Below, in pieces: positions 12,714 through 27,739 of a stretch of 55,547 nucleotides of DNA. The notes under the pieces were generated by a model, which had not been told where the DNA came from, searched no databases, and worked only from the letters and a program-made list of their open reading frames with translations. Source of the stretch: Spirochaetaceae bacterium (lineage in GTDB: Bacteria > Spirochaetota > Spirochaetia > Treponematales > Rectinemataceae); NCBI GenBank assembly GCA_026418115.1, contig JAOABY010000009.1, forward strand, positions 1 through 55,547, in the 5' to 3' direction. The first letter of the stretch is position 1, and each line of letters begins with the position of its first letter. A program made the position numbers and the translations under genes.

Positions 12714-12876
12714 GCGCTCCGAATCGCGCTGGCCGCCCAGCGGCCAATGGCCTACAGACTGCATGGCTTGCAGCCGTGCTGATCCATGGCTGCGCGATCG
12801 AGGCCTGTTCCCGCACCGCGGGATGGCCGAGGGTTGTGCAGGAAACGGCACAGCCTCCCGTACTTGGAAAGGAGAA
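12714..12876 (+). ncRNA. Moco/Tuco-type riboswitch candidate
   Basis: This ~160-base leader is densely paired. CTCC (12717-12720) can pair with GGAG (12871-12874), which is part of the tupA ribosome site AAAGGAG, so the closing stem would hide it. ATCGCGC (12723-12729) pairs with GCGCGAT (12792-12798) and encloses three hairpins: GGCCGC-CCA-GCGGCC, CTGCA/TGCAG, and GCCGTG/CATGGC. Then follow TCCCGC-ACC-GCGGGA inside GGCC/GGCC, and GGTTGTGC/GCACAGCC with a GGAAAC-containing loop. Position before tungstate uptake and cofactor genes, size and the CTCC...AAAGGAGA frame fit the Moco RNA family, whose reduced variants are thought to sense the tungsten cofactor. Class assignment from memory of the consensus; not checked with a covariance model. 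Confidence 0.65.
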
Positions 12877-12881
12877 CCTGT

Positions 12882-13727
12882 GTGGTGCCAAAGTCACGTA
12901 CGTTTCTGCTACTCATGGTGAGCCTGCTGGTGGTAGCGGGCAAGGTTCACAGCGAGGATGCCTCCTCTGCGTTCAAGTCCCGATCATCTGGCTCGCTGAG
13001 GATTGCGACCACTACCAGTGTGGAAAACTCAGGTCTGCTGAATGTCCTGCTCCCTGCATTTTCCCGACGCTACGGGCTTGCAACCAGCGTCATCGCTGTA
13101 GGATCAGGAGCAGCGCTCGCCATTGCCGAGCGAGGCGACTGTGATCTGGTCATATCGCATGCGCCAGACCTCGAAGCTCAGTTCATGGCCAAGGGATTGG
13201 GTGAACTGCATGTTCCATTCATGACTGGCGATTTCCTGCTGCTTGGCCCCCGCAATGACCCTGCAGGCGCAGCCCATGCCGACACATGTGTCGACGCATT
13301 CCGTGCCATAGCTGCATCGAAAGCACTCTTCATATCGAGGGGTGATCGATCGGGTACGCATCAGAAAGAGCTGGAAATATGGGCGAACATCAAGGGGCTG
13401 GTGCGCGGGCCGTGGTATCGGGAAGCAGGGCAGGGAATGGCAGAAGTCCTCACCATGGCAGAGCAGCTTGGGGCATATACGCTCAGCGATCGCGCTACCT
13501 GGCTTGCCATGCGCACACGGCTGCCGCATCTGCAGGTACTCCTGCAGGGCGATGCGATGCTTCGCACTATCTATAGCGTCATTATCCCCAGGAGCGCACA
13601 TTTGTCAGGCCGCAATGCCGATGGTGCAGCGAAGCTGGCTTCGTTTCTGACCGGCAGTGAGGGAGCATCACTCATTGCAGGTTTTCTGATTGAGGGCGAA
13701 CCATGCTTTTTCCCGATCGCGCATTGA
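12882..13727 (+). CDS. tupA: Tungstate ABC transporter substrate-binding protein
   Basis: About 281 residues from a GTG at 12882 (another GTG follows at 12885), 7 bases after AAAGGAG; longer readings upstream run through the folded leader and were rejected. A signal peptide (FLLLMVSLLVVAGKVHS) precedes LRIATTTSVENSGLLNVLLPAF, AVGSGAALAIAERGDCDLVISHAP and the TGDFLLLGPRNDPAG segment, which are the hallmarks of TupA rather than ModA. It should bind tungstate (possibly molybdate) in the periplasm and pass it to TupB. The first gene of an eight-gene operon with overlapping frames. Confidence 0.9.
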   Translation: MVPKSRTFLLLMVSLLVVAGKVHSEDASSAFKSRSSGSLRIATTTSVENSGLLNVLLPAFSRRYGLATSVIAVGSGAALAIAERGDCDLVISHAPDLEAQFMAKGLGELHVPFMTGDFLLLGPRNDPAGAAHADTCVDAFRAIAASKALFISRGDRSGTHQKELEIWANIKGLVRGPWYREAGQGMAEVLTMAEQLGAYTLSDRATWLAMRTRLPHLQVLLQGDAMLRTIYSVIIPRSAHLSGRNADGAAKLASFLTGSEGASLIAGFLIEGEPCFFPIAH

Positions 13728-26219: not shown

Positions 26220-26248
26220 TTGACGCACCGAAGGGGCATCGATATAGT
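26220..26248 (+). promoter_or_regulatory. Predicted promoter of the Mn2+ riboswitch transcript
   Basis: TTGACG (26220-26225), 17 bases, TATAGT (26243-26248). Transcription would start near 26255, at the very first conserved bases of the aptamer. Confidence 0.7.
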
Positions 26249-26250
26249 AA

Positions 26251-26361
26251 GTGTGCGGGGAGTAGCCGCCTGCCACTGAAGGCAGGCATGCCGATCGTCA
26301 GCACGAGGCTTCAGCCTTCCGGTCGGCATGTACCATCAGCAAGGTATGCGCGAGACCGCAC
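26251..26361 (+). ncRNA. yybP-ykoY (Mn2+) riboswitch
   Basis: The three conserved parts of the yybP-ykoY aptamer appear in order: GGGGAGTAGCC (26257-26267), the CGTCAGCAC loop (26296-26304) and GCGAGACC (26350-26357). Between them are hairpin GCCTGCC-ACTGAA-GGCAGGC (about 26268-26287) and the stem CATGCCGA/TCGGCATG enclosing AGGCT-TCA-GCCT. The closing stem is GTGCG (26253-26257) with CGCAC (26357-26361). Its 3' strand is also the 5' arm of the terminator at 26355-26387, so binding of Mn2+, which stabilises the closing stem, would stop terminator formation and turn the permease on. Confidence 0.88.
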
Positions 26362-26387
26362 GGACATCATGCCGTGCGGTTTTTTTT
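26355..26387 (+). terminator. Riboswitch-linked terminator / attenuator
   Basis: ACCGCACGG (26355-26363) and CCGTGCGGT (26372-26380), followed by a run of eight T, 72 bases before the permease start. Overlaps the aptamer's 3' strand. Confidence 0.92.
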
Positions 26388-26458
26388 ATTCGCAGGGCAT
26401 GCATGAGGCGGATTTCCGAACTGCCTGTCCGGATATTTTCTGCACCGGAGGTGCGTGC

Positions 26459-27739
26459 ATGCAGGAACAGCTTCCTCTCATCGTAGCGATTGCAATGTAT
26501 GCTGCCATCATCATTTTCCCCGGACTGAAGGCATGGTGGCCTGTGGTGGCGGCCGGCATCCTTGTAGTGGCTGGTGTGCTCAGCATAGGCGATGCGCTCA
26601 GCCTGATAAACTGGAACATCCTGATGATCTATGCGGGGAGCCTCCTGCTCGCCGAGCTGTTCATTCATTCGGGAGCGCCTTCACTGCTTGCAGACAGAAT
26701 TCTTGAACGCGCGCCCAATCCAGGAGTCGGAATAACAGCCATACTTGTGTTCACCGGCCTTGTGTCCGCATTTGTGGAAAATGTGGCCACTGTACTGGTC
26801 GTTGCTCCGGTCGTGCTGGAACTCGCCAGAAAAAGCCGAATGCCGCTTCCGCCCTTCATGATCGGGCTCGCGGTCATGGCGAATCTGCAGGGCACCGCCA
26901 CGCTGGTCGGTGATCCGCCGTCGATGATCTTTGCCGATTTTGCGGGGTATTCCTTCAATGATTTTTTCATCAAGGATGGGCGGCTCTCGATTTTCTTCAT
27001 TGTACAGGCAGCAGCAGTGGCTGGTGCTATATATTTCTTTCTTCATTTCCGGAAGCTCCAGAGTGAGCATCTCTCACTGCCGGATGCACATGTATCTTCA
27101 TGGGTGCCCGCCTGGCTGCTGGGAGCAATGATTGCAGGCCTGGCGCTCCTTTCGACGGTATCGGAGGAAGGCGGCATTCATCCAGGGAGCGGACTGCTCG
27201 TAATGGTGCTCGGAGTGGGTGGCCTGGCCTGGCTTGCCTTACTGAAGGGAGACCGAGAGGCCGTCCGGAGAATGCTGCAGGGTTTTGACTGGCAGACCAT
27301 GGTATTCCTGGCAGGCATTTTTATCACAATTGGCGCAGTCTCCCATTCGGGCGTGCTTGAGAAGCTTGCCGCGGGGATGGCTTCTGCTGCTGGTGGCAAC
27401 AGGCTGCTCGCATTCGTGATGATCACTGGCATATCGGTGCTGATCTCTGGTTTTGTGGATAATGTACCCTACATTGCCGCCATGCTGCCGGTGGGGATGA
27501 GCCTTGCTTCCACCATGGGGGGTAGACCGGAGCTCTTCATGTTCGGTCTGCTGGTCGGCTCATGCATCGGAGGGAATCTGACGCCATTCGGGGCGTCAGC
27601 GAATATTGTTGCGGTGAGCATCTCACAGAAGCAAGGCCAGAGTATCGGCATAGGCAGGTGGATGCGGCTTGCGGTTCCCTTTACACTGCTCACGACGCTT
27701 GTTGCATCAATGATGGTATGGTGGCTCTGGGCTTCTTGA
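26459..27739 (+). CDS. ArsB/CitMHS-type ion permease under Mn2+ riboswitch
   Basis: 426 residues with ~10-12 membrane helices in two halves. Each half has the family signature of the ion transporter superfamily: FVENVATVLVVAPVV and GTATLVGDPPSM in the first, GFVDNVPYIAAMLPVG and GGNLTPFGASANIVAV in the second. Members move arsenite, Na+, citrate or other anions; the riboswitch suggests that this one handles manganese, as exporters often follow yybP-ykoY elements. GGAGGT is 7 bases before the ATG at 26459; the upstream in-frame ATGs would start inside the riboswitch and were rejected. Substrate is inference. Confidence 0.88.
   Translation: MQEQLPLIVAIAMYAAIIIFPGLKAWWPVVAAGILVVAGVLSIGDALSLINWNILMIYAGSLLLAELFIHSGAPSLLADRILERAPNPGVGITAILVFTGLVSAFVENVATVLVVAPVVLELARKSRMPLPPFMIGLAVMANLQGTATLVGDPPSMIFADFAGYSFNDFFIKDGRLSIFFIVQAAAVAGAIYFFLHFRKLQSEHLSLPDAHVSSWVPAWLLGAMIAGLALLSTVSEEGGIHPGSGLLVMVLGVGGLAWLALLKGDREAVRRMLQGFDWQTMVFLAGIFITIGAVSHSGVLEKLAAGMASAAGGNRLLAFVMITGISVLISGFVDNVPYIAAMLPVGMSLASTMGGRPELFMFGLLVGSCIGGNLTPFGASANIVAVSISQKQGQSIGIGRWMRLAVPFTLLTTLVASMMVWWLWAS

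Follow-up and report, generated by a model that had tools for sequence, protein, structure and literature searches.

A leader RNA at positions 26251–26362 (+ strand) of the DNA stretch analysed here (55,547 nucleotides in full, hereafter the window) is, judged from its sequence, almost certainly a complete yybP-ykoY riboswitch, and it stands directly in front of a gene for a CitMHS-type permease, from a family with no known part in manganese handling. The RNA belongs to an already known class; the novelty lies in the target family, which looks new. On our best reading, the leader would be a transcriptional ON switch for Mn2+, both the ligand and the direction being what we infer from the letters. 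We lean towards the view that the switch drives an exporter of Mn2+, or of a similar divalent cation, with the substrate, the export direction, and the proton coupling all presumed. It hangs in the balance whether the spirochaete CitMHS clade with the ENVAT/GDPPSM/DNVPY signature constitutes a Mn2+ exporter family that has not been described before. Our literature search, which stopped short of the class-defining work (Dambach 2015, Price 2015), found no CitMHS protein as a yybP-ykoY target, and an earlier listing is possible.

The source is a 2.17 Mb draft genome of a Rectinema-type spirochaete, and the whole window lies on a single contig. Promoter, aptamer, terminator, Shine-Dalgarno sequence, and a 426-codon permease gene form a compact unit, and the limits given for it in the first-pass annotation, from the −35 box at 26220 to the end of the stop codon at 27739, proved correct. 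An aminotransferase gene on the opposite strand and a purL-like gene downstream, both named by eye, flank the unit. Its sigma-70-type promoter (26220–26248, + strand; TTGACG, 17 nt, TATAGT) agrees with the consensus at 10 of 12 positions and would place the transcription start near the beginning of helix P1. The aptamer, delimited by RF00080 and held-out models, covariation, and core blocks, is followed on the same strand by an intrinsic terminator (26352–26389) made of a 12-pair stem (26352–26383) and a T run, the Shine-Dalgarno sequence GGAGG (26447–26451), and the permease gene (26459–27739; 426 aa). The promoter-like and terminator-like sites are each single matches, against 0.2 and 0.1 expected from shuffles, respectively. 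A start of the permease reading frame at the ATG at 26288, within the aptamer, was rejected in favour of the ATG at 26459, which GGAGG precedes by 7 nt. The same-genus relative G002 also carries the permease. Elsewhere in the window, positions 12722–12891 (+ strand) hold a candidate Moco (molybdenum/tungsten cofactor) riboswitch with 45.8 bits against the Rfam cut-off of 36.

The first-pass annotation had recognized a Mn2+ riboswitch from its conserved blocks and had named an Infernal search with RF00080 as one check. Taken formally, this check failed, because RF00080 gave the window 15.9 bits against a gathering score of 45 (E = 0.017 in 311 nt), with no match in the window at the gathering score; the sub-threshold match was the sole one in the whole genome. 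On similar terms, however, the validated mntP leader of E. coli likewise stays below the gathering score with 41.6 bits, and the validated E. coli alx leader was not listed by RF00080 at E up to 0.1. The threshold is therefore not discriminating, and these positive controls explain the score missed by the window. The Rfam threshold misses spirochaete riboswitches of this class, and database surveys of Mn2+ riboswitches in general probably overlook many.

Among the permease orthologues gathered from relatives, 16 of 30 have a leader like that of the window. The spirochaete leaders form two subtypes, one of them without helix P2, and both score below the Rfam cut-off. With structures drawn by hand for the alignments, we built and calibrated three covariance models, namely R1 from nine P2-containing leaders including the window, R2 from seventeen leaders of the P2-less subtype, two of which are mntP leaders, and R3 from the R1 set without the window (eight relatives' leaders, realigned, no E. 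coli sequence in training). In a search of 79 kb, R3 recovered the held-out window with 81.8 bits (E = 4.7e-18) and detected the E. coli mntP (E = 3.6e-8) and alx (E = 2.5e-4) leaders, with no further match up to E of 10. R1 and R2 each detected the E. coli mntP leader, too. Covariation among the relatives pointed in the same direction: both sides had changed in 17 of 29 pairs compared with a shuffled mean of 9.4, a count reached by none of 500 shuffles, and the double-change pairs of a second leader alignment likewise exceeded all 500 shuffles, with the slid controls far lower in the leader alignments. P4 was the weakest helix in class A (the R1 alignment), with 60% of cells paired. The predicted fold of 26235–26390 had a z-score of −4.3 relative to shuffles. 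The riboswitch class proposed for the leader was thereby upheld, by its conserved core, by covariation, by mutual recognition with two validated E. coli elements, and by siblings in front of TerC, P-type ATPase, and MntP genes.

Crystal studies show Mn2+ lodged between L1 and L3 (PMC6754395, PMC9190785); its ligands there are five phosphates and the N7 atom of an adenosine that does not vary (A41 in the L. lactis aptamer, A48 in that of X. oryzae). The aptamer of the window comprises, on the + strand, the helices P1 (26253–26258/26356–26361), P2 (26269–26274/26281–26286), P3 (26288–26296/26321–26329), and P4 (26330–26334/26343–26347). Its L1 block GGGGAGUAGC (26257–26266), shared with relatives and the mntP leader of E. 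coli, contains the L1 motif GGGGAGUA with the equivalents of G9 and A10 at 26260–26261, both kept without exception in relatives, the A-minor adenosine A10 corresponding to 26261. The 5' part of L3 (26297–26320) reads GUCAGCACG, as in the alx and L. lactis type, and places the Mn2+-discriminating adenosine at 26300, a position invariant in the aligned class-A leaders; the L3 of the other subtype (UCAACA) is like that of E. coli mntP. A further conserved aptamer block, GCGCGAGACC, occupies 26348–26357. The position equivalent to U44 of L. lactis is an A in the window aptamer.

The anatomy of the sequence also provides a predicted platform for switching. The terminator stem (26352–26383) overlaps the 3' strand of P1, and a terminator is found in most of the relatives' leaders. 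P1 forms when the aptamer is folded alone; with the terminator included, the terminated structure has the lowest energy (−67.3 vs −54.2 kcal/mol with P1 forced). Containing the 3' strand of the closing stem P1 in the first arm of the terminator is the ON arrangement in L. lactis (PMC9190785), as had been claimed for the present leader, and the layout matches the Mn2+-dependent antiterminator examined in work on the yybP riboswitch (PMC11087558). When Mn2+ is scarce, the nascent leader would surrender P1, the 3' strand of which (CCGCAC) would pair into the GACCGCACGG...CCGUGCGGUUUU terminator, and transcription would end upstream of the permease. When Mn2+ is plentiful, it would bridge L1 and L3 via the N7 of A26300, the two legs would dock, and P1 would be locked, such that the terminator arm would be withheld and the permease made.

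We surveyed the genes that lie behind this RNA family in spirochaetes. In 59 relatives, R1 found nine permease leaders and elements in front of one TerC gene and five P-type ATPase genes, two genomes holding both permease and ATPase elements. R2 found 41 elements in 39 of the 197 genomes of the order, and the 30 loci examined comprised 18 permeases, one truncated permease, four MntP, six OAD_beta proteins, and one contig end. Because R1 and R2 were trained mainly on permease leaders, the permease share among these targets is biased; this bias does not explain the non-permease targets, except for the two mntP leaders in the R2 training set. MntP, TerC, and P-type ATPases are known targets of the yybP-ykoY class, and all of the targets listed by the first-pass annotation (MntP, TerC-like proteins, and P-type ATPases) were found behind the RNA family in relatives.

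The pairing with PF03600 genes, for which a wider survey had been suggested, recurs as far as another class of the phylum. Of 80 named permease loci, almost all of them from spirochaetes, 24 have the element in front, and in the permease tree it occurs on each of the two principal branches; the other 56 loci have no detectable element, a few of them for want of upstream sequence, and most Treponema permeases are among those without one. In two Treponema-type genomes (L117 and L127), the order is riboswitch, mntP, permease. In G247, which belongs to another class of the phylum, the element lies directly before a 37% identical permease (64.8 bits, E = 5e-17); it was the sole positive, as no element was detected upstream of 11 other distant orthologues, and R2 found none upstream of a 39% identical Subdoligranulum homologue. 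A phylum-wide R1 search under strict filters, in which few candidates were scored, returned the window as the sole match. Single loci show varied arrangements. One permease (L105, upstream of 4001) is preceded by the aptamer 3' tail and the terminator only, which looks like the remnant of a partial aptamer deletion; two permease paralogues lie in tandem behind one element (L157, G046:C14:150622-153400); and in L146 (G101:C19) the element is followed by the first permease codons only and then a lipoprotein gene, which might reflect a decayed gene or an assembly join.

The same riboswitch type stands before a stand-alone OAD_beta protein in Treponema-type genomes (L132, L133, L137, L138, L142, L144, as well as L166 and L167), a second unexpected target family. 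The family was assigned by search for L132 only (PF03977, 489 bits), the other loci being recognized by sequence likeness, and the two neighbourhoods that were read contain no decarboxylase partner genes. By the same logic as for the permease, these proteins could be a further Mn2+ exporter family. Near the OAD_beta element of L132, positions 1197–1316 (− strand) match the TD-1 RNA with 50.3 bits against a gathering score of 64.5.

The permease itself is a PF03600 (CitMHS) protein with 224.6 bits against the curated Pfam cut-off of 31.9. The Pfam search gave no MntP, TerC, UPF0016, CDF, or P-type ATPase match, and besides PF03600 only a sub-threshold DctM match. PF03600 includes carriers for anions, metal-citrate complexes, arsenite, and Na+, and the permease stays below all functional NCBIfam cut-offs. 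Its identification as an ArsB arsenite pump proper (56 bits vs 457; 41.8 vs 415) or as a MamN magnetosome transporter proper (61.5 bits vs 500) was accordingly rejected, as was that as a DASS Na+-coupled anion symporter proper (79.5 bits vs 198.6), in which SNT motifs stand where the permease has E-N-V and D-N-V. The AlphaFold2 model (pLDDT 87.6) has a two-repeat elevator fold with hairpin tips, and the nearest solved folds in Foldseek were ArsB (TM 0.81) and VcINDY (about 0.71). In the sequence alignment, E107, D152, and D334 stand where VcINDY has its hairpin-tip and GSPPN-loop serines. The metalloid-binding Asn111 and Asn337 of ArsB correspond to N108 and N335, its Asn158 to D152, and its Asn336 to D334. 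Across 86 sequences, each of E107, N108, D152, D334, and N335 is conserved to 97% or more. Because the acidic residues replace the serines of the DASS motifs, an anion substrate is disfavoured. Related Na+/H+ antiporters of the superfamily are expected to share some of these acidic residues, which at best would fit a cation and do not single out Mn2+.

The candidacy of the permease as a Mn2+ exporter, put forward in the first-pass annotation, gained support by association, from the riboswitch-mntP-permease order at two loci and the conservation of the pairing to another class. In the mechanism we propose, the permease, a relative of the ArsB and DASS proteins, would work as an elevator-type carrier and expel Mn2+, probably against protons; E107, D152, and D334 would lie in the pocket or close to it. 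The permease is not necessarily the chief Mn2+ exporter, since its own genome also has MntP (C44:31943-32398), encoded downstream of another gene in what looks like an operon, and a search of this MntP gene found no element. Nor is it a simple MntP substitute, because many genomes have both; functional replacement of MntP was rejected since there is no anticorrelation and most permease genomes contain both.

Other explanations of the pairing have to be weighed. The switch might be a genuine Mn2+ switch with a permease that moves another solute helpful under Mn2+ overload, by Na+/H+ or K+/H+ exchange or as a CitM-type carrier of a Mn2+-carboxylate complex. The diverse substrates of PF03600, NCBIfam scores far under every functional cut-off, the same RNA preceding the stand-alone OAD_beta, which belongs to a Na+-pump family, and MntP encoded in the same genome would all suit such a role. 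Yet the acidic residues in the DASS serine positions speak against an anion, the remaining genes behind the RNA family encode known or candidate metal exporters, and the permease follows mntP at two loci, so that we regard another solute as unlikely, if still worth serious attention. The spirochaete aptamer might instead have drifted to another divalent ion, such as Ca2+, Ni2+, or Co2+, and the permease would then export that ion. Variants of yybP-ykoY with altered specificity or other divalent ligands have been suspected (PMC7266159), both Ca2+ and Mn2+ elicit a response from a pneumococcal element in front of an ATPase (PMC9495176), and the U44 equivalent is an A in the window. Such drift nevertheless appears distinctly improbable to us, as the discriminator adenosine and the L1 core are kept, the two L3 types match those of E. 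coli alx and mntP, and MntP and TerC are among the co-targets in the survey.

Several PF03600 members are importers, and the direction of transport is unreadable from sequence alone, which would leave room for a permease that takes up Mn2+ or a Mn2+ complex behind an OFF switch. This we hold to be very improbable given two orthologues that follow the exporter gene mntP and the P1/terminator overlap, which is the ON arrangement, as in L. lactis (PMC9190785). To an ordinary attenuator or a chance resemblance without any riboswitch we give practically no credence: the RF00080 score below the gathering score could be cited for it, but the held-out model and its two E. coli matches contradict it, as do the covariation that no shuffle reached and the retention of the element across two classes.

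The bacterial Mn2+ efflux systems listed in a 2026 paper were CDF, MntP, UPF0016, and P-type ATPases, plus TerC (PMC13274385). The recurrence of the permease-riboswitch pairing across spirochaetes, sometimes together with MntP, makes the permease a good candidate for a novel type of Mn2+ exporter. If this holds true, a permease of the ArsB/DASS superfamily would add a Mn2+ efflux family with a different fold and coupling, a part of PF03600 would gain a function, and the mntR-linked YbiR of E. coli would become worth examining.

Compared with known systems, the leader of the window shares with the E. coli alx and mntP and the L. lactis yoaB leaders (RF00080) the L1 block GGGGAGUAGC, the discriminator A in L3, the P1-P3-P4 paper-clip, and the GAGACC 3' strand, and with yoaB also the P1/terminator overlap, whereas it differs from RF00080 systems in preceding a CitMHS permease and in scoring under the Rfam cut-off. 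The permease resembles the arsenite/H+ antiporter ArsB (structure 10tp) in its predicted fold, two-repeat elevator layout, and hairpin-tip asparagines, but it is only 18% identical, and its pocket is more acidic at D152 and D334. With VcINDY and the DASS Na+-coupled dicarboxylate carriers, it shares superfamily, fold, and aligned hairpin tips, whereas it has E107-N-V and D334-N-V for the SNT motifs and GDPPSM for GSPPN. E. coli YbiR is likewise a PF03600 protein, but it is 22% identical to the permease and does not share the hairpin motifs; with so low an identity, YbiR is a lead and not a proof of shared function. At NC_000913 853183-854765 (L047), its gene lies directly after the Mn2+ regulator gene mntR and overlaps its 3' end by 4 bp, which suggests a role for YbiR in manganese biology; R1 and R2 found no yybP-ykoY element in the ybiR region. 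The MntP, TerC, UPF0016/MneA, CDF, and P-type ATPase exporters have no sequence relationship to the permease, and the genes for MntP, TerC, and P-type ATPases stand, like that of the permease, behind the same RNA family in relatives.
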